From: a virus
Length of the DNA: 38,128 nt
IMG/VR virus record: IMGVR_UViG_3300030117_003468
Coordinates: 1,373 to 39,500 of that record
Strand: one strand, 5' to 3'
Shown here: positions 19,052 through 38,128 of the stretch, piece by piece
Layout of the letters: the number at the start of each line of letters is the position of its first letter
Position numbering within the stretch: the stretch's first letter is position 1
Position numbers and translations under genes: made by a program
Notes under the pieces: generated by a model
What the model saw: the letters and a program-made list of their open reading frames with translations, nothing else
Told to the model about the DNA's origin: nothing
The model's database searches: none

Positions 19052-21778
19052 ATGCCTGAGTTAAAAAATAGTTTTACTGGTGGTAAAATGGAAAAAGATC
19101 TCGATGAGAGAATCGTTCCAAGAGGTCAATATAGAGAGGCTTTAAATATTAGCGTTGCTACTTCAGAAGATTCTAATGTTGGAGCCGCTCAAAACATATT
19201 AGGTAATATAAAAGTAACATCTGCTATTCAAGGTTGGCGTGAAGATCAATTTGGCGATATAATTCCCTCGTTTGATCCAGGAGTACCCGGGTTTAATAAT
19301 CAACAATTTCACATAGCGCAAATAGTAGACCCTCAAACTGACATGCTCTACAGGTTTGTTAAAACAAGATATAGAAAAAGTGGTGAGCAATCAACGCGCT
19401 TACGTATGGATAGAATTGTTGAGTATGATACAACAAAATCTATATCAACGCATTGGTCGGATAAAGAGAGAGCTGTATTTGTAGATATATATGAAGCGCA
19501 TATAAAGTGGGATAAATTTGATCCTGATAGAAATTGTGATTATCCTAATCAATCTAGAATTAGACTTGTGAAAACCGGTTTTCCAAATGTTAACCAAGTT
19601 AGATGGGGAATGAAAATGACTGGTTTAAGTATGACAGAGCCCGCAACTGTTTTAGAAGTTGATTATAGTAGTGGTTGGATAATTTTAGATAAACCCATGG
19701 ATTTCACACACCCACAAATTGTCCAAGGACCACAAGGTCCACAACAAGTTTATAATTTTGGTTTTACATTTAAAGGAGATAGAGTTTTAAATTTTGATAA
19801 AGATAGACATATAACTGGTTTAAATATAGTAGATGGAATGTTGTTTTGGACTGATAACTATTCGGAGCCAAAAAAAATAAATATAGAAAGATGTAAAAAA
19901 GGTAGTGATACTTCTGATAATGGTGTTTTAAGAGGTATAGAAGGTTTAAGAGGTAGAGGTTCTGAAGTATACACAAGACTAGATGATTTTGTTATGCACA
20001 CTCTTTTAGTCATTGATGATAAGTACCAAAAAGACTGCATGAAAGATGAGTACATATGCGCAAGAGGTGGTTGTACAGATCCAGCGGCTTTTAATTATGA
20101 TTGGAATGCCTTTAGTGATGATGGTTCTTGTTGTTATACTGGTGGATGTACAAATCCTACCGCGTGTAATTATGATGCCAACGCGTGTTTTGACGATGGT
20201 TCATGTGTATATACATCTTACTGTATGGATGATGGATCAGGAGCTTTTCCAAGTGTTAATCGACCAGCTAGTTGGGTTGGACCAGCTTCTAATTATGTTT
20301 CTAACGCTGTTTGTCATGATGGTAGTTTATGTACGTACACTGTTCCACCTCCAACACCAATATGGGGATGTACAGATCCAATGGCTACAAATTACGATCC
20401 AACAGCAAGTATAGATTGTTCTTTGCCAATGCCGGCTAATGCAATACCTAGCACGCTTGGTTGCCCTTGTAATGTACCTAATTATTGTTATGTAGATGTT
20501 GAATTTAAAAACGCCTTGGTAGCAGACACAAATAATACATTGTTGAATTCTAATTTTATACCAGTTTCGGGATCAATTAATTACAACCCTACTAATCAAT
20601 GGGCGGTTTTAGCTAGTGATGTTGCTAATATTACTATAGTAAGTATAGGTTCTGGACAAGTTTCAGGTGGACCTATAGATGATATAACGGGTATAGAATG
20701 TTTTACAGCTTTAGAAGAGCTTTATATGAATGGACAATCAGTTACAAGTTTTGATTTAAGTAATAATTTAAATTTAAGAAAACTGATGTTTAGTGGAAAT
20801 AAAGTAGAGGTTTTTGATTTAACTGCAAATGTTAATTTAACTCATCTTAATTGTAGTAAAAACTATAATGTTTCTAACGGTTCAATAGTTTTAGACCAAG
20901 TTGATTTAACACAAAACACTGCGTTAACACATTTATATGCAACAGGTTTAAGAGATTTACACGTTATAGATTTAAGTCAGAACGCCCAATTAATACACTT
21001 AGATTTAAATAGAAGCGCAATACAAGGAATGTTAAATTTACTTCCTAATCCTAATTTAGAATATATAAATGTTGAAAACTGTTCTTTAACTGGGCTAAAC
21101 CAACAATCTAATCCTTTGCATACATTGATATGTAGTAATGATGATGGTAGTTCATGGGCAAGTTCGCCTGGTTCAAACGATTTTAGTTGTACTGGTTGTT
21201 TAAATATTTCAAACAATCCTAACTTAGAAGTATTTAAAGCTAATAGATGTAATATAGATTATACAGGTGTTGATTATTTCCTTTATAATCCAGAATTAAG
21301 AGAAGTACAGGTTATAGGTAATAAATTCAGGCATATTGATTTGTCACAAACTAAAGCAACTACTATATGGGTTTGGAAACAAGGTGGAACTACTCAAGGT
21401 GGTGTACCCGGTTCTTTAGAAGTACTAAAAATTAATAATGGATTAAATCATCAAATGGGTTATAATACTCAAAAGAGTTTATACGCAGGTGATAATCCAA
21501 ATTTAAGAGAGATTAAAGTAGATAGTGTTACTAATACTGGGTTTGGGTATGCGTTGGTAGGCTCTCTAAATCATACAATGCAAGAGCATTTTTCATCTGA
21601 TACAACTCAATTTACTACATCGCTCGTTGGAGGTCCTCATCCATACAATCCAGCAAACGAATCTGGAATTGGCGCGCCTATGCCAGATTATTATTTACCG
21701 GATCAATATAGAATCCCAAATGCTGGATATCTTGGATCTCCTAATTCATCGTTCCAAAACCTTTACTTTATTGATTAA
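19052..21778 (+). CDS. Tail muzzle/stabilisation-type protein, N-terminal part, with TSP3-like and LRR cassette
   Basis: A 908-residue protein. Residues 1 to about 330 match the start of a large tail protein of crAss-like and related phages (NSFTGGKMEKDLDERIVPRG, EALNISVATSEDS, LFWTDNYSEPKKINIERC). From C341 to about 460 there are three GCTDP..xNYD...DDGSC-type repeats, common in marine flavobacterial surface proteins. Residues about 478-545 form an LRR cap (YVDVEFKNALVADTNN), and about 547-770 leucine-rich repeats (LEELYMNGQSVTSFDLSNN and so on). The frame ends at a TAA at 21776-21778. The next ORF, in the same frame after six sense codons, appears to continue the tail protein. This looks like a repeat cassette inserted into an originally single gene, leaving a split protein. 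Confidence 0.65.
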   Translation: MPELKNSFTGGKMEKDLDERIVPRGQYREALNISVATSEDSNVGAAQNILGNIKVTSAIQGWREDQFGDIIPSFDPGVPGFNNQQFHIAQIVDPQTDMLYRFVKTRYRKSGEQSTRLRMDRIVEYDTTKSISTHWSDKERAVFVDIYEAHIKWDKFDPDRNCDYPNQSRIRLVKTGFPNVNQVRWGMKMTGLSMTEPATVLEVDYSSGWIILDKPMDFTHPQIVQGPQGPQQVYNFGFTFKGDRVLNFDKDRHITGLNIVDGMLFWTDNYSEPKKINIERCKKGSDTSDNGVLRGIEGLRGRGSEVYTRLDDFVMHTLLVIDDKYQKDCMKDEYICARGGCTDPAAFNYDWNAFSDDGSCCYTGGCTNPTACNYDANACFDDGSCVYTSYCMDDGSGAFPSVNRPASWVGPASNYVSNAVCHDGSLCTYTVPPPTPIWGCTDPMATNYDPTASIDCSLPMPANAIPSTLGCPCNVPNYCYVDVEFKNALVADTNNTLLNSNFIPVSGSINYNPTNQWAVLASDVANITIVSIGSGQVSGGPIDDITGIECFTALEELYMNGQSVTSFDLSNNLNLRKLMFSGNKVEVFDLTANVNLTHLNCSKNYNVSNGSIVLDQVDLTQNTALTHLYATGLRDLHVIDLSQNAQLIHLDLNRSAIQGMLNLLPNPNLEYINVENCSLTGLNQQSNPLHTLICSNDDGSSWASSPGSNDFSCTGCLNISNNPNLEVFKANRCNIDYTGVDYFLYNPELREVQVIGNKFRHIDLSQTKATTIWVWKQGGTTQGGVPGSLEVLKINNGLNHQMGYNTQKSLYAGDNPNLREIKVDSVTNTGFGYALVGSLNHTMQEHFSSDTTQFTTSLVGGPHPYNPANESGIGAPMPDYYLPDQYRIPNAGYLGSPNSSFQNLYFID

Positions 21779-30244: not shown

Positions 30245-30712
30245 ATGAATGAGCAAGATTTGTTGAAAGAAATACATAGTTTAGAAAGTCAAATTAGTAA
30301 AGACGAGTTAGTGTGTAGAAAGCTTAGAGGTAGTGATTGGGATACTTTACTATCGTGGTGGGATTTTTGGCCAGGATGGTCGGCTCCGTCTAAAGATTTT
30401 TTACCGGGAAACGCAACTAGTGGACTAATGATTCAAAAAAACGGAGAATCTATTGTTGCTGGTTTTATATACGAAACTAATTCATCTGGCGCTTTATTAG
30501 AGTGGATAGTTTCTAATCCTAAATATAGACAGAAAGATAGAAATGAAGCTATTGAAAAACTTATTGTAGAAGCTGAAAAGTGGTGTAAAGAAAATGGATA
30601 TGGTTATATGTTTACAATTGGTAGAAGTAAAAGTTTAATAGAAAAACATAGGAAACTTGGGTGGATTGTAGATGACAAACCATCTCATGAAATAACAAAA
30701 AAAATAAAATAA
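30245..30712 (+). CDS. GNAT-like N-acetyltransferase domain protein
   Basis: A 155-residue protein. After an N-terminal coiled-coil helix (about 3-22) it reads as a GNAT fold: CRKLRGSDWDTLLSWWDFWP (helix 1), GLMIQKNGESIVAGFIYE (strands 2-3), GALLEWIVSNPKYRQKDRNE (strand 4 and the substrate/cofactor-loop region), EAIEKLIVEAEKWCKENGYG (helix 3), MFTIGRSKSLIEKHRKLGW (strand 5 to helix 4), VDDKPSHEI (end). The usual pyrophosphate-binding R/Q-x-x-G-x-G/A loop is not intact (YRQKDRNEA), so catalysis is uncertain. Small GNAT-like proteins also occur among the internal virion proteins of T7-like phages. Its neighbours are structural genes, so it may modify or serve in the virion. Confidence 0.6.
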   Translation: MNEQDLLKEIHSLESQISKDELVCRKLRGSDWDTLLSWWDFWPGWSAPSKDFLPGNATSGLMIQKNGESIVAGFIYETNSSGALLEWIVSNPKYRQKDRNEAIEKLIVEAEKWCKENGYGYMFTIGRSKSLIEKHRKLGWIVDDKPSHEITKKIK

Positions 30713-30713
30713 T

Positions 30714-33218
30714 ATGGCAGCAGTAACAGCGGTAGTGGCGGGGGTAGCGACAGTAGCATCTGGGGCGATTCAAGCAATAGGCGCGGCCGGCGATAAAAGA
30801 GACGCTAAAAACAAACAAAGAGCAGCTGAAAGGGGATTAAACCAAGCTCAAGATAGATTAAAAGCAATAGACACTTCAAACCCATTTGAAGATGCTAAAA
30901 ACGCATATGAAGGTTTAGATAATAAACTAGCTGATCTTGACAATGTTTATGATGAACAACGAAATGTTTACGCCGACATGGAAAACAGATTCAGAGGTCA
31001 AAGAAACGCTATGGAAGATATGGAAAATGCGTTCGAAGATTTGACTGTTAATACTCAACAAGCAGAATTTGAAGCCCAACAAATGGCACAACAACAAGCT
31101 AATATTATGGCTAACATGGCTGGCGCGGCTGGTGGTTCTGGTATAGCTGCTTTAGCACAATCTATGGCAAACGCTGGTGCTTTACAAGCTCAAAAAGCAG
31201 CTGCTTCTATTGGAGCGCAAGAAGCTCAAAATCAAAAATTAGCAGCACAAGCAGATCAAAGTATACAAGAAAAAATAGCTACAGAGCAAAGTAGATTAGA
31301 TACAACAGAGCGTTCTGCTGATATGGAAATACAAAAAACACAAATGGGTGCAGAAGAAGCTATGCAAGCCGCTAGACTTGGTGAGGCATCAAAATTACAA
31401 TTAGTAGAAGCCCAAGAAGAAGCTAACTTACAAATGCAAGAAGCCCAAGGTGCGATGGAGGTTCAAAAACTAAAAGGCGAGGGAGACATGTGGAGCGCAC
31501 AAACGGAATTACAAAAAGAAAGCACATTAATGCAATCCAAGATGAAAGAGATGGAAATCGCGGCTGGAGCCGCTCAATCTGCTGATGAGTCTATGTGGGG
31601 TGGAATTGGGACTGCTATTGGTGGGCTTGGACAGCTGAGTGACGAAAGATTAAAAGAAAATATAGTAAAAATTAAATATTCAAATTCTGGAATACCTATA
31701 TACAAATTTAATTACAAGGGAGATTCTAAAACTTGGAGTGGTACAATGGCTCAAGATTTAATAAAATTGGGTAGAGAAGATGCTGTCATTATGGACGACG
31801 GATATTATAGAGTAAATTATAATTTAATAGATATAGATATGAAGGAAGTAAAAAGCTCACCGTTTAAACAGTTGGGAAAAAATCCCCAAGAAGAAATGAT
31901 TAAACAAAAAGCAATGACTGATGCTGGTTTAGATATAATAGGTGGCGCAACAAAAAGAAAAAACTGGGAAGATTTACAACTTGACATTAAATCTATAGAA
32001 CCAGAAAGCATGAAGCTTAGAAAATTAAAAGATCAACTTTTAAGAGATAAAGAAAAAAAGAGTTATGAAAGTGGCGCTCAAATATCTTTACCAGCTGCTT
32101 ATTCTGAGCTTGGATTTGAATTAGTAAAAAGATATAAAAAAGAATTACACACCGCTTTAGAAAATGATGATAGACAAGCTGAGAAAAACGTTCAAGCAAA
32201 AGTAGCTAATTTAGCTTCCAATGTTGACGTTGTTAAAAGTGCTATTTTAGAGTTTTATGAAGATCATTTCGAAAGTGAATCGCTATTGTCCAAAGGGGTT
32301 TCTCAACAACAAGTGAGTTTTGCAACACAAATGTATTGTAAAAATCCAGAATTAGTAGTAGTTTATGCCACCCAAGAAGATATACAAGCTGGGCTTACTG
32401 ATTATTATGGTGAGTTGGTTCAAGAGGACAATCAATACTGTCTTGTTTATGATTTTTACAACAACCCTGTTATGGTTAACGTTTTAGATGGGAACAAAGA
32501 TATGTTCATTAGGGACAATTTAAAAGCATTGGAGTATATAACATTCTTAAACGAAACACATGACATAGCTGTTGAGGCGAACGCTGGTAAATCTGCTGTT
32601 AAAATTGATTTAGGTAGAATTGATTATAAGATAAATTCACTTTTTGGTTTTAACGATGGAACAGCGACTAAAGAGCAGGACGAGTTAGTAATGATGTTTT
32701 GTCATGATAGTGAAGTATTGAGAGATGGTAGTACGTTTAGACGTCATTTGTACGAACATCCTAATATTCAAAATTTAAACTATGGTGGTTTTGATTGGGA
32801 TATGTTAGAATTCAAAAGACCTTTAGGACCTGGTGACAAAGGTCATTGGGCTGATGAAATAAGTCAAACTGATAGGTTGATGCTAGTTGATGCTATTGTT
32901 AATTCTGATAGTCCTTTCTTTAACATGAATTTATTAAGAACACTAGTTAAAGAATATTATACTTATAAAATCGAAAACGCGTGGTGGAAAGGTATGGGTT
33001 TTCCAGAAGGTAAAATAGAAGTAATGAGACTTAAAATTAAAGAGCTTAATAAAGATAGATTTAAAAAAGAAAAAGCTGAAGCGGCTAGAAATGGTCAAAA
33101 GAATTTTACATTTGACGGTAAAGTATATCCAACGGGTATGACAGATGCTAAAATTAAAAAACAAGAAAAAGAAAGAGCACAAGCCTTAAACAAAACAAAT
33201 CCAGAAATAGGTAAATAA
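30714..33218 (+). CDS. Virion protein with internal S74 chaperone/protease domain, fused to a second protein
   Basis: An 834-residue protein in three parts. Residues 1 to about 300 are a small Ala-rich hydrophobic start (AAVTAVVAGVATVASGAIQA) and a very long Ala/Gln/Glu/Met coiled coil, as in internal or DNA-transfer virion proteins. Residues 309-375 are a short S74 intramolecular chaperone: SDERLKENI with S309 and K314, the Ser-Lys pair spacing known for endosialidase and MYRF cleavage, then GIPIYKFNYKG, MAQDLIK and YYRVNYNLIDID. Residues 376-834 are a soluble domain (SSPFKQLGKNPQEE; YCKNPELVVVYATQEDIQAG; RRHLYEHPNIQNLNYGGFDW; YKIENAWWKGMGFPEGK) normally, as I recall, a separate gene. An in-frame ATG (M376) sits exactly at the junction, so a separate 459-residue product is possible. 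Confidence 0.65.
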   Translation: MAAVTAVVAGVATVASGAIQAIGAAGDKRDAKNKQRAAERGLNQAQDRLKAIDTSNPFEDAKNAYEGLDNKLADLDNVYDEQRNVYADMENRFRGQRNAMEDMENAFEDLTVNTQQAEFEAQQMAQQQANIMANMAGAAGGSGIAALAQSMANAGALQAQKAAASIGAQEAQNQKLAAQADQSIQEKIATEQSRLDTTERSADMEIQKTQMGAEEAMQAARLGEASKLQLVEAQEEANLQMQEAQGAMEVQKLKGEGDMWSAQTELQKESTLMQSKMKEMEIAAGAAQSADESMWGGIGTAIGGLGQLSDERLKENIVKIKYSNSGIPIYKFNYKGDSKTWSGTMAQDLIKLGREDAVIMDDGYYRVNYNLIDIDMKEVKSSPFKQLGKNPQEEMIKQKAMTDAGLDIIGGATKRKNWEDLQLDIKSIEPESMKLRKLKDQLLRDKEKKSYESGAQISLPAAYSELGFELVKRYKKELHTALENDDRQAEKNVQAKVANLASNVDVVKSAILEFYEDHFESESLLSKGVSQQQVSFATQMYCKNPELVVVYATQEDIQAGLTDYYGELVQEDNQYCLVYDFYNNPVMVNVLDGNKDMFIRDNLKALEYITFLNETHDIAVEANAGKSAVKIDLGRIDYKINSLFGFNDGTATKEQDELVMMFCHDSEVLRDGSTFRRHLYEHPNIQNLNYGGFDWDMLEFKRPLGPGDKGHWADEISQTDRLMLVDAIVNSDSPFFNMNLLRTLVKEYYTYKIENAWWKGMGFPEGKIEVMRLKIKELNKDRFKKEKAEAARNGQKNFTFDGKVYPTGMTDAKIKKQEKERAQALNKTNPEIGK

Positions 33219-33219
33219 T

Positions 33220-36200
33220 ATGTTAAAAAAACCATCTCCATTAAAACATAAGGAAGAAGGCCATTTGATAATGACCGACGAGGCTCATAAAGAAGCGCAT
33301 GGTGGTACTATACCAGAAGAAGTAGATAATCTTACTTCTTTTGATATAAGTAATATTATAAATGCACCTAGAGATGAAAAAATTAAAGAAATAAACGATC
33401 GAACTAATGTAGACGTAGATAGAGCTGTGAATTTTTTCAATGATCCAATAGCTTCTGTTTCGGATCAAGCGCGTGGCCCTCAATACCAAGGTATACCTAT
33501 AGTTGTTGGAGATGAAGAAGAAGGATATCTCGCTGATAAAAGAAGAGGTGAGCATTGGCAGGGGGAACCACATGAGAATGAGTTTAGAAGAATAAATGGC
33601 GTTTGGACACATGTTGACCCAACTACAAAGGAGCAAACACCCTTAGATAATTCTCCAGGAGCAAGCGATAAAGATAAGAATATGATATCTGATTTACGTT
33701 TCGCGGCTACTCAAGATGATTTTGATATAAATGAACCACTGACTTGGCATGGGAAAGATAGATATAAATGGACGTCAGAACTAGAGGCAAGCGATAAATA
33801 TGCTGGATTAAACGTTAACGTAGTTGATAATATAACTGGTCGTGTTAGATTAGGATTGCCAAATGGAAGATCATTAGTTACTAATCCCAAGAATTTCGAG
33901 CAAACTGAAAAAGTTATTAAAGAGTTTGAAAGTTTCTATAATAACAACAAGAAAGATAAAAATCTTTTAAGTACTCTTAATTTTGACGACATGAATTCCT
34001 TTAACGCTATATGGGGTAAAGCTGGTTATCGTTTGGATACTAGGGTTGGTAAAGAAGGATTTTTTGGCCCTAATGGTGATCCGATAGATCTACAAGAAAC
34101 TAGAGAAAAATATTTTAGCGATGGAAATCCTTTTTCACCAACAGATGTTGTTAAAGCATACTTATACGACAACGCCAGTGAGGGTGATGTGTCTAACGTT
34201 GTTAGAGCTGCTTTGAACGAGGAAAATATCCAGTATGAGAAAAAGAAAAATTTAAAGAAGCAAAAACTTGAAGGTGGTGAATATACCGCGGAAGCTCATA
34301 ATCAATTTATGAGAAATGATTATAAAGATTATATAATTGCAAATTTACAACGATTAAACGTATCGGAAAACACTATAAATGCTTTTGAAAATAGACTTGA
34401 CGATTTATCTAAGGATTTATCTAAGAGTAAAGATAACATGAGTTTTATGGATTATATAAGAGAGGGTTTTGGTGGCACAGCTGGTTTTACTCCAGATGAG
34501 TTTTGGGGAAGAGGACAACATGGAAATGATCTTGGTATAATGAAAAGCATGACTAATGTAAATTCTATAATTCAATCTTTACCAGACAACGTGCAAAATA
34601 ATGATGGTGAAACTATTCCAAATCCAGATAAAATAGCTTTGCAAAAACTGTTTAGCGAAACAGATGTAGATGGTGAAAAAATTATGGATAAAGAGTTGAG
34701 AAACGTTATTCATAATAAAGAGTTGGAAATTATAGATAATGCAGTTAGAACTGAAACAGATAAATATATAAGACAAAATAATAAAGATTTACTTGGAGTT
34801 GGTTCTGAGATAAGACAAAGACAATTACTAGAAGGTGATCCAAATTTAAAAGCACCAGATGGAGAAAGAATAGAATCAAAAAAACAAATAGACGAAAAGG
34901 TTAAATTATTTGTGGATGAAAATAATTCTGAAGTACAAAAAGCTATGACTAACTACGAGTCGCAAGTAAAAAGTCTAGCTAAAGATGCTGCTCAAAATGG
35001 AATTAAAGTTGATATAGATGAAAATGGTAATTTTTTAATTGACGGTGAAAACAAAAAAGCAGTAGAGTTTTACAAAAAAGAATTTGGTATATTAAAGAAA
35101 AACGCAGATAATAAAGTTGAAGATTATAACAACACTTTAAAGCAATATCAAAATGAGTATTTAAATTGGCAAAATAGATACGGCGCTACTTTAGATATGG
35201 TAGATCAAACTACAAGAGAAACTGATATTTGGAATATTGGAGGCGCTGCTTTCACGAATGGTTTTAGAAGATTTGGACATGCTGCTCTTAAACCATTTGA
35301 TGAAGTACAAGCTGCTAGATATAAAAAGTGGATGCAAGAGGGAGAAGAAAGAGGTTTAGAAAAGAAAGTTGATTATCAAACAGCATGGAAAACTGGTCAA
35401 TCACTAAGGTTTGGTTATAGAGAAGCTACCACACAAGGTGCTAACACCCTAGTTGCAATGGGAGGAACATTTGCTACGGGTGGCGCGTTTGGTGCTAGTA
35501 GTTTAATGGCAAGAGCAACAGCACCAACGCTGTTTGGCGCTTACGCTGGTTCAGATAAATATTTAGAACTATCCATACAACAAGAAGCCGGGGAGATAGC
35601 TAAACAACAATTAAAAGCTTTAGAGAAAAATAGAGGCCTTATGTCTAAAGAAGATTATTTAAATGCTCGAATGCATTTAACAAGAACAATAATCTTAGGG
35701 GATATAGATCAAGCAACTAAAGATAGGGTTTCTACAACTAGTGGTTTAATTGAGGGAACTGTCATGAGTGTTGTTGGTACAGTTCCAAACACGTTAAACC
35801 TAACAAAAGGATTACTTAATAGAGATCCTTTAAAGTTAAGTAACAAAATTTTTAGATCCAACCTTCACGCGGGAATAGCTACTGGTGGTAATATTGCCAA
35901 AATGGTTGCAGGAGAGATTGTTGAAGAAACAAGTATTGAAGGTTTAAATATTATTAACGACGGTTTAGTATTAGGTAGAGATATGGATTTTAGTACTTTA
36001 GACGATGTTGCTATAACGTCTATAGTATCCGCGGGTCCTAGTACTGGTACAATAGCTACATACACTACTATAATGGAGCAAATGCAAACTGCTCCTTTTA
36101 GAAAAGAAACAAACGCTAAAATAAATAAATTAAAAGATCTTGAAGCTAAATTTCGTAATCCTGACTTAACGTCACAAATGAGAGATATATACACTGATCA

Positions 36201-38128
36201 ATACAAAGCGATTATAGAAGATATATCAAATTCTCACGTTGGTTTAGAAGTTGACGCCTTAGCTGCTGGCTCGAAAAATATTAAAAAATTAATAAAAGCC
36301 TCTATAGAAGAAAATTATCTCAACACAATCGCTGGTGTTAATCCAAATGATAGTAGAAAAACTATTGAAAGAAAAAGAGAATCTTATATAAAATCTTTAA
36401 ATGCTGAAGACGCAAAAGAATTTCAAGATAAAATTAGCGCTATTCAAAACTTAAGAAAAGATATTACAGATAATATAAACTACGATAATGTAGCAGAAAA
36501 AGCATTTGGTGACATGGGTAAAGCCATGGAGAAAAAGCTAGAGAATAATCAAGATTATATAAATGCAGATAAACGTGGTAAACTTATCATGGTTTTAAAC
36601 GCTGTAAGAAAACAAAGAATACAGGATAATATTAAGATGGGTAAGGCAGATCCTGGAATAAAAAAACAAGTTGACGATATATTAAATGACGAAGCTAATA
36701 AGAAATTAACTAAGAAACAAAGATCTGATAAAGAAAACGCTTTATATGAAAATTTTGCTAACAACTTGTTGGTTAATCAAAGACAAGCTTTTATGCAAGC
36801 TACCGAAGGCAATACTAGCGCTGAAAGTATAATAGCAAACTTAAAAAAACAAGGTAAAGAATTAGAAATAGTAGACGCTAATCAAGATAAAGAAAAGATG
36901 AAAGAGGCTGTTTGGAAGTCTGAATCATTAACAAGTATGCAGAAAAGAGGTATAAGCGAGGCTATTAATAACGGTTCGGCTAAAGGTGTTATTATTGATA
37001 ATAAGTACATAGTGCTCAATAAAGAAGCTGCTAAAGAAAACTTAAAGAGAGGTGATTTACTTCAAGGTACAGTTATGTCCCACGAAATAAGTCATTTTAT
37101 AGATGATCATTCTTTTAAAAATGAAAAAGAAAAATCTAACTACACAAATAAATTACATAATTTTATAAGCAAAAATGATGCGGAGGTACATGAATTAGCT
37201 TTAAACCGTGTTAATAATCTGGTTGATGTAGATGGTAAAAAACTTTATGATAAAAATAAAAGTTTTGAAGAACAATCTATGAAGTATAAAGACGAGTATA
37301 CTAAGTCTGTGCAAGATATTTTAATGAGAGATGATTTTGCTTTAGAATTTCAAGAGTTAAAAAAGAAATCAGGTAAAGGATTAAGAAATATAGCTAAAGG
37401 TATAATGGGTAAAGACTTTAGTATATATACAGATGAAAACGCCGGGGCTTGGATGATTGATTTTATTGATAACTTTAGAAAAGGCAAGCTATCACCATTA
37501 GCTAAACGTAAAATGAAAGCGGCTAAGAAGAAAGGTACTAGCGTTGCTACTGAGACCAAAGGCGTTGCTCAATCAGCTGACATCGTAGATCAAACAAAAG
37601 AAAATTTACAACAAATAGTAGACGATGCTTCTACTATTAACGAAGAAACTGGAGAAAAAACATTTGATAAAAGTAAATTTGATCCTAACCTACTAGAATT
37701 ACAAGCTGAAATACCAGGTATGGTAGATGCTCAGGTTAACAATTGGTTTAAAAAATATCCTCAATTAACAAGAAATTGGGATTTAGATGCTATTATTGAC
37801 GCGAAGGAGAGATTAAGTGCTGATGTTGTATATAGAATGCTTGTATCTAAAACTGATAGAAGTTTTGACGGGAGAGGATCTTTGTATGGATTCTTAAATG
37901 GTAGAATACGTTATAGAATGTTAGACCATTTTGCTGATCCAAATGTTTCTGTAATACCTGATTTTAGTCAACAAGAGATTAACGAACAAAGACAAGAGCT
38001 TGACAAAGAGTTTGCTGACGATGTTACTAAAATACAAAATCAAGAATTAGACCAACCTAGACATAAGGTTAATATGCTTACCGGTTTTTCTAAGTTAACC
38101 ACAAAACAAGATGCCGTAAAAGAAACGG
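33220..38128 (+). CDS. Giant virion protein with HEISH zincin motif (3' partial)
   Basis: The frame opens at the ATG at 33220 and stays open to the window end: 1,636 codons, incomplete. It starts MLKKPSPLKHKEEGHLI. The front half is charged and helical. A Gly/Ala-rich hydrophobic region (about 740-785, TLVAMGGTFATGGAFGASSL) could insert into a membrane, as in internal ejection proteins. A further hydrophobic stretch near 850-890 is followed by EIVEETSIEG. HEISH at 1288-1292 with H1288, E1289 and H1292 is a zinc-protease signature; E1406 in a TDENAG segment is a candidate third ligand. The last part (KERLSADVVYRML ... GSLYGFLNGRIRYRMLDHF) is helical. It probably travels in the capsid and enters the cell, by analogy with large podoviral internal proteins; this is inference. 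Confidence 0.6.
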   Translation, partial: MLKKPSPLKHKEEGHLIMTDEAHKEAHGGTIPEEVDNLTSFDISNIINAPRDEKIKEINDRTNVDVDRAVNFFNDPIASVSDQARGPQYQGIPIVVGDEEEGYLADKRRGEHWQGEPHENEFRRINGVWTHVDPTTKEQTPLDNSPGASDKDKNMISDLRFAATQDDFDINEPLTWHGKDRYKWTSELEASDKYAGLNVNVVDNITGRVRLGLPNGRSLVTNPKNFEQTEKVIKEFESFYNNNKKDKNLLSTLNFDDMNSFNAIWGKAGYRLDTRVGKEGFFGPNGDPIDLQETREKYFSDGNPFSPTDVVKAYLYDNASEGDVSNVVRAALNEENIQYEKKKNLKKQKLEGGEYTAEAHNQFMRNDYKDYIIANLQRLNVSENTINAFENRLDDLSKDLSKSKDNMSFMDYIREGFGGTAGFTPDEFWGRGQHGNDLGIMKSMTNVNSIIQSLPDNVQNNDGETIPNPDKIALQKLFSETDVDGEKIMDKELRNVIHNKELEIIDNAVRTETDKYIRQNNKDLLGVGSEIRQRQLLEGDPNLKAPDGERIESKKQIDEKVKLFVDENNSEVQKAMTNYESQVKSLAKDAAQNGIKVDIDENGNFLIDGENKKAVEFYKKEFGILKKNADNKVEDYNNTLKQYQNEYLNWQNRYGATLDMVDQTTRETDIWNIGGAAFTNGFRRFGHAALKPFDEVQAARYKKWMQEGEERGLEKKVDYQTAWKTGQSLRFGYREATTQGANTLVAMGGTFATGGAFGASSLMARATAPTLFGAYAGSDKYLELSIQQEAGEIAKQQLKALEKNRGLMSKEDYLNARMHLTRTIILGDIDQATKDRVSTTSGLIEGTVMSVVGTVPNTLNLTKGLLNRDPLKLSNKIFRSNLHAGIATGGNIAKMVAGEIVEETSIEGLNIINDGLVLGRDMDFSTLDDVAITSIVSAGPSTGTIATYTTIMEQMQTAPFRKETNAKINKLKDLEAKFRNPDLTSQMRDIYTDQYKAIIEDISNSHVGLEVDALAAGSKNIKKLIKASIEENYLNTIAGVNPNDSRKTIERKRESYIKSLNAEDAKEFQDKISAIQNLRKDITDNINYDNVAEKAFGDMGKAMEKKLENNQDYINADKRGKLIMVLNAVRKQRIQDNIKMGKADPGIKKQVDDILNDEANKKLTKKQRSDKENALYENFANNLLVNQRQAFMQATEGNTSAESIIANLKKQGKELEIVDANQDKEKMKEAVWKSESLTSMQKRGISEAINNGSAKGVIIDNKYIVLNKEAAKENLKRGDLLQGTVMSHEISHFIDDHSFKNEKEKSNYTNKLHNFISKNDAEVHELALNRVNNLVDVDGKKLYDKNKSFEEQSMKYKDEYTKSVQDILMRDDFALEFQELKKKSGKGLRNIAKGIMGKDFSIYTDENAGAWMIDFIDNFRKGKLSPLAKRKMKAAKKKGTSVATETKGVAQSADIVDQTKENLQQIVDDASTINEETGEKTFDKSKFDPNLLELQAEIPGMVDAQVNNWFKKYPQLTRNWDLDAIIDAKERLSADVVYRMLVSKTDRSFDGRGSLYGFLNGRIRYRMLDHFADPNVSVIPDFSQQEINEQRQELDKEFADDVTKIQNQELDQPRHKVNMLTGFSKLTTKQDAVKET

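Follow-up and report, generated by a model that had tools for sequence, protein, structure and literature searches.

A short internal Peptidase_S74 domain joins two ejection-type proteins in a phage late gene and may act as a self-cutting linker

Results

The fusion ORF and its surroundings

The window analysed here is a stretch of 38,128 nucleotides, positions 1373-39500 of a 59,008-base virus record (IMG/VR record IMGVR_UViG_3300030117_003468). Its late genes run in the order terminase, P22-like portal, capsid-type proteins, tail gene, a 2171-aa gene, small genes, the fusion ORF that is the subject of this report, and a very large gene. The relatives of the portal belong to flavobacteria phages, namely Cellulophaga phi38:1 and phi18:3, the Flavobacterium elemo phages, Maribacter Panino and Tenacibaculum Gundel_1. 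The fusion ORF (30714-33218) is uninterrupted from the ATG at 30714 to the TAA at 33218 and encodes 834 amino acids, laid out as an N-terminal module A, a short Peptidase_S74 domain and a C-terminal module B, so that the S74 domain is internal and has 455 residues C-terminal of it. The features of the locus are as follows.

30714..31637, + strand: module A (residues 1-308), predicted first ejection-type protein
31638..31850, + strand: S74 domain (residues 309-379), PF13884, with invariant Ser, Asp and Lys and an S74-type model
31638-31640 and 31653-31655, + strand: codons of the putative catalytic pair, S309 and K314; predicted cut L308/S309
31839..31841, + strand: ATG of M376, in the final S74 strand; a weak candidate for an internal start
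31851..33218, + strand: module B (residues 380-834) and stop codon, the second protein, largely helical and assigned to the ejection type by position
31857..31868, + strand: SPFK motif (residues 382-385), marking the former N-terminus of B
33220..38127, + strand: gene C, the next, giant gene (starts MLKKPSPLKH), which runs past the window end and continues in the virus record

Module A has a hydrophobic, Gly/Ala-rich N-terminus followed by long helices, which AlphaFold places with low confidence at 19-49, 86-135 and 144-283. Module B is mainly helical and well predicted at 431-680 and 718-828; its strongly conserved stretches include DGSTFRRHLYEHPNI and LLRTLVKEYYTYKxENAWWKGMG. Upstream, the first 56 residues of the tail-type protein encoded at 19052-21778 weakly match the crAss muzzle family (23.7 bits; cut-off 27) and phrog_14478, and the same protein has a leucine-rich-repeat-like stretch at 574-605.

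Identity and extent of the S74 domain

A sequence-only reading of this ORF had recognised an S74 core with S309 and K314, and the identification was borne out by profile and structure comparisons. Pfam PF13884 (Peptidase_S74) matches residues 309-352 with 24.6 bits (cut-off 22), and the SDxxxK motif is present as SDERLK, comprising S309, D310 and K314, with Ser and Lys five residues apart. This profile matches all nine fused chains described below (E <= 0.01) and none of six separate A and B chains. S309, D310 and K314 are invariant across 56 aligned S74s, and the dyad is complete in 9/9 fused copies. The S74 fold proposed for residues 309-375 is likewise supported: a model of residues 294-379 (pLDDT 79) matches proteins with viral intramolecular chaperone auto-processing domains, with E-values down to 2.9e-6. 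A PDB search with the S74 model, uninformative for so short a domain, gave no S74 entry among its matches.

The C-terminal boundary had to be moved. The domain had been taken to finish at NLIDID (D375), with M376 as a gene start behind it. However, stand-alone S74 proteins, which end immediately before the stop codon in ...NYNLIDVNMKQI, ...DYNLIDVDMKKV or ...DYNKLDVEFKEV, finish three residues later, and AlphaFold places the last S74 strand of the window protein at 377-379. The domain therefore spans residues 309 to 379, ending at V379, and M376 lies inside it, at an ordinary F/M position of the last S74 strand; among 51 stand-alone S74s, 35 have F and 16 have M at the equivalent residue. S74 and B are joined at V379/K380, immediately ahead of S381-S382-P383-F384-K385. 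Like the short S74s of relatives, the domain ends at 379 without helices, and the model continues with a B helix at 391-427.

It had also been stated that S74 domains normally end a protein, and this agrees with their distribution. In the best 80 S74 loci of IMG/VR, the classified domains are C-terminal, with at most 23 residues after them, except in four contigs that belong to the same clade as the window and in L179. The protein encoded at L179:361-3330, unrelated to that of the window, has an internal S74 with 538 residues after it; L179 was set aside as another such fusion because its N-terminal part is unlike A.

Identity to the window in the four fused contigs L001, L002, L003 and L004 is, respectively, 87, 81, 78 and 70% for S74, 70, 69, 72 and 61% for module A, and 78, 70, 75 and 59% for module B; in each pair compared, the conservation of S74 equals or exceeds that of A and B. 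One fused copy (L006:3920-6472) has lost the final S74 residues (K-x-V-K), and its S74 Met is followed directly by SSPLKQ.

Fused and split forms among relatives

A search with the whole protein recovered nine IMG/VR contigs, to which module B as query added two. Eight of these eleven contigs (L001-L007 and L029) carry a continuous A-S74-B frame as in the window, so that the fusion is present in nine assemblies, all from a group of marine phages. In the remaining three (L008, L009 and L031), A and B are two genes, and all three contigs lack S74. The proposal that two genes had been joined right behind an S74 domain, for which related phages were to be searched for separate genes, is thus upheld by these three contigs, and also by cultured relatives with separate genes at the same place in the gene order. 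In L008, an A gene of 326 aa is followed by a B gene starting MKKIKSSPLKQ; in L009, A has 313 aa and B starts MKKVIPSPLKQ; in L031, A has 324 aa and B starts MNGNNANLGK. The separate B genes encode 463-469 aa and the separate A genes 313-326 aa. Relative to L308/S309, the split A proteins end at -2 to +2 residues in L008 (depending on the relative compared), +1 in L031 and -5 in L009. Cutting of the fused protein would thus release almost the same A as the split relatives encode.

The association of fusion with S74 was followed across 80 A loci found with an A alignment, which comprise eight fused loci, the three split relatives, seven with an S74-ended A and a separate next gene, and 62 with neither S74 nor fusion, a few of which run off their contig. 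No A-B fusion lacking S74 occurs among these 80 loci, and in none of 69 further A relatives (seven of them S74-ended) is A fused to B. A tree of B (12 rows) requires three changes between the fused and split states, all three forced by well-supported branches, and a tree of the A core (81 rows) also requires three, two of them forced; recombination between phages could inflate these counts. S74 presence and fusion state change jointly at every change in the trees. S74-ended, unfused A proteins (L062, L076 and L077) fall inside the smallest supported set of the A-core tree, of 18 rows, that contains the whole clade.

From these trees, the simplest order of events would be separate A and B, then an S74-ended A beside a separate B, then A-S74-B, and finally three returns to separate A and B with loss of S74. 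Loss is the favoured direction because it is improbable that S74 was regained three times at one and the same site, and because the B start of L008 has ATATAAATATGAAAAAAATAAAA, as found at the S74 end of L003, although this stretch is A/T-rich. No copies were confirmed in contigs of bacterial genomes, and the records searched held no cultured phage with the fusion.

The small gene directly ahead of the fusion (30245-30712) matches phrog_17252 (function unknown). It is absent in L005, L009, L029 and L031, and in MW202828 its position is occupied by an annotated N-terminal acetyltransferase.

An N-terminal motif behind the S74 domain

SPLK or SPFK stands directly after S74 in all nine fused copies. 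In 724 ORFs at these loci, with 11 internal junction or SPLKQ copies set aside, the motif was counted 24 times in the first 45 residues (32,580 aa) and three times elsewhere (290,534 aa), an enrichment of about 70-fold near the N-terminus. Within the window's virus record it is confined to the starts of the 2171-aa gene and the giant gene and to the old B start. The position of the motif behind S74 marks the former start of B.

SPLK also occurs on A in L009 and L031 and in A genes of other lineages. The motif shifts between genes, L031 having it on A and not on B, and it lies at or near the N-terminus of several late proteins that are unrelated to each other (A, B, the giant C and the 2171-aa protein; window 21797, 31857 and 33220). 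Beyond the window, loci with SPLK or SPFK at or near an N-terminus are L009, L031, L052, L063, L076, L078, L088, L097 and L120. Late proteins may share this motif as an N-terminal signal, possibly for virion loading or maturation.

Modules A and B as putative ejection proteins

Modules A and B seem to be internal virion (ejection) proteins and not fibre proteins, and the gene order points to the ejection module of podoviruses. The late order A, B and a giant last gene, behind the portal, capsid and tail genes, is common to Panino, the elemo phages, phi38:1, phi18:3 and MW202828, and the phi18:3 proteins at the same positions (gp120, gp121 and gp123) are annotated as structural from MS/MS. The A-S74 part has a match to phrog_6121 (virion protein); its match to phrog_4287 ('DNA ejection protein') is due to S74 only. 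The match of the cultured A proteins to the window's A is confined to the hydrophobic N-terminus.

A profile of module B showed no homology to the B proteins of cultured relatives and no match in the PDB; its weak similarity is limited to the genes that follow A in L063 and L073. Structure searches with Foldseek and VIA-align, a weak test in that B was taken within the full-length model, gave no PDB match for its fold. Since no homologue of B was recognised, gene position is the sole basis on which a role in ejection is suggested for it. RHph_Y1_10, an unrelated phage of Rhizobium, encodes a 312-aa protein that ends in S74 immediately ahead of two annotated injection proteins, and the late regions of PAE2 and EBPR podovirus 2 each contain a comparable gene ending in S74.

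Discussion

A proposed self-cutting polyprotein

We consider it more probable than not that the ORF encodes an ejection polyprotein that is cut by its S74 domain into A and S74-B. A, S74 and B would be translated as a single chain; S74 would fold and then, as an oligomer, cut the chain ahead of S309; the products would be A (308 aa) and B with S74 retained as an N-terminal cap (526 aa). A and B would thereby be supplied in equal amounts, and the release of A would be tied to correct assembly around S74. The cut, the ejection of the proteins and a benefit from equal amounts are our inferences. In T7, gp14 and gp15 each form octamers or larger assemblies ahead of ejection and hexamers afterwards (PMC8954989), a stoichiometry that would fit a benefit from equal amounts of A and B, but P22 injects unequal numbers of its ejection proteins, about 12, 12 and 30 (PMC8402733).

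A cleaved A with an S74-B partner was one of the outcomes envisaged in the sequence-only reading, and it is the best of them because no fused copy has lost the dyad. The presence of S74 in all nine fused chains and its absence from the six split chains also speak for the cut, and the finding that all three S74-less relatives have two genes suggests that S74 cuts the joint product into working parts. Internal cutting by such a domain has been demonstrated in MYRF, where S587 and K592, the equivalents of S309 and K314, cleave an internal domain at P586/S587, with only trimers being cut (PMC8326128). Bdellovibrio Bd3182 is cut at the S74 Ser, and the cut is blocked by S782A (PMC10769870). Against a cut, the window's S74 is short and, unlike MYRF, has no trimer-driving coil of its own, and a search of the literature found no report of cleavage by so short an S74 domain (71 aa). 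In addition, SPLK would come to lie about 73 residues inside S74-B, though it is usually near an N-terminus. For tailed phages more generally, the odds seem even that two ejection genes are merged into a single equimolar polyprotein through S74 as the self-cutting linker, the fusion surviving only with the linker.

Alternatives to the cut

It is possible, but unlikely, that A-S74-B is never cut and that S74 is only a folding or oligomerising module within one bifunctional virion protein. The shortness of the domain and its lack of a coiled coil would suit this. However, S309 and K314 persist in every fused copy and in the 56 aligned S74s. Moreover, A and B are functional as separate chains, as judged from the three relatives that have them apart, and S74 loss always accompanies their separation.

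We think it quite unlikely that B is made mainly from an internal start at M376, yielding A-S74(-B) and free B, so that the fusion would be translational and cutting secondary. The ATG is found at codon 376 in 9/9 fused copies and serves as the B start in L008 and probably in L009; the equivalent ATG being the B start in the split L008, internal initiation is possible in the fused copies. The 20 bases ahead of the M376 ATG are 90% A+T, in the top 1% among the window's internal ATGs, the start context is strong in L002, L003 and L007, synonymous codons 369-380 rank with the most conserved ones, and the SPLK motif is normally near an N-terminus. Yet the methionine is an ordinary S74 residue, as its frequency in stand-alone domains attests, so that its presence requires no start. 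The window has G at -3 of this ATG, where 83% of its starts have A, and adenine at -3 is a positive start determinant in Flavobacterium johnsoniae (PMC6847099). By a simple model built from the genes of the window, the M376 start scores -0.5 in the window and -5 to +5 in fused relatives, versus 6.7-7.8 in split relatives, and the synonymous conservation at 369-380 is equalled at 308-322 and in other stretches. A strong internal start is thus weakened by the poor, unconserved -3 context. The earlier suggestion that B could also be made from this ATG is plausible in L002, L003 and L007 and only weakly so in the window.

An assembly error or lost stop near 31839 that joined two separate genes in this metagenome-derived record, a check raised by the sequence-only reading, has practically no probability left and is refuted, since the same open junction is kept in eight other, independent contigs from seven metagenomes, at 53-76% protein identity.

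Comparison with known systems

The self-cutting polyprotein proposed here is comparable to MYRF/MyRF ICA (PMC8326128, PMC3742440), in which an S74-type domain also lies inside the chain, with a Ser-Lys pair five residues apart, the N-terminal part is released by self-cutting, as predicted here, and the C-terminal partner stays on the domain. MYRF differs in being a eukaryotic, membrane-bound transcription factor and not viral; a C-terminal triple coiled coil, which the window's S74 does not have, drives its trimer formation, and cutting is proven for MYRF whereas we infer it here. The S74 chaperones of endosialidases, K5 lyase, the T5 L-shaped fibre and phage neck appendages (PMC8326128) share the Pfam family and the SDxxxK pair and belong to phage virion proteins, but these S74s are C-terminal, are shed and serve triple-beta-helix fibres or spikes, whereas the window's S74 is internal, between two helical proteins.

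In gene order only, the locus recalls T7 gp14-gp15-gp16 and P22 gp7-gp20-gp16 (PMC8954989), likewise three adjacent late genes of which the first is short with a hydrophobic start and the last large; the T7 and P22 ejection proteins come from separate genes without S74 and have no sequence or fold match to B. The proteins of phrog_6121 and phrog_4287, about 392 aa long, end in the same short S74, and phrog_6121 also matches part of A; they differ in that S74 is the protein end and there is no B part.

An internal S74 is already known from MYRF; what is new, as far as the papers searched show, is an S74 that links two ejection-type proteins of a phage. These papers mention neither S74 domains in ejection proteins nor phage polyproteins processed by S74, which does not prove that such reports are absent. 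A domain known as the shed C-terminal chaperone of fibres and spikes is thus found here as a linker in what appears to be DNA-ejection machinery. The natural fused and split versions are controls for each other, and the clade makes the question directly testable. If cleavage is true, it would provide a phage case of an S74-processed polyprotein, hint at a role for the S74s found at the end of other ejection-type proteins, and make a compact self-cutting linker available for study.

The 'internal virion protein D' of MW202675 also has an internal S74 (277-327), a late position behind an acetyltransferase gene and more virion protein after the domain. It differs in its downstream SLT transglycosylase (601-694), its degraded S74 end and its unrelated phage, and its N-terminal part has no established homology to A. 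This 1185-aa protein (L018, 5173-8730) is an independent fusion of an internal S74 to an SLT transglycosylase.
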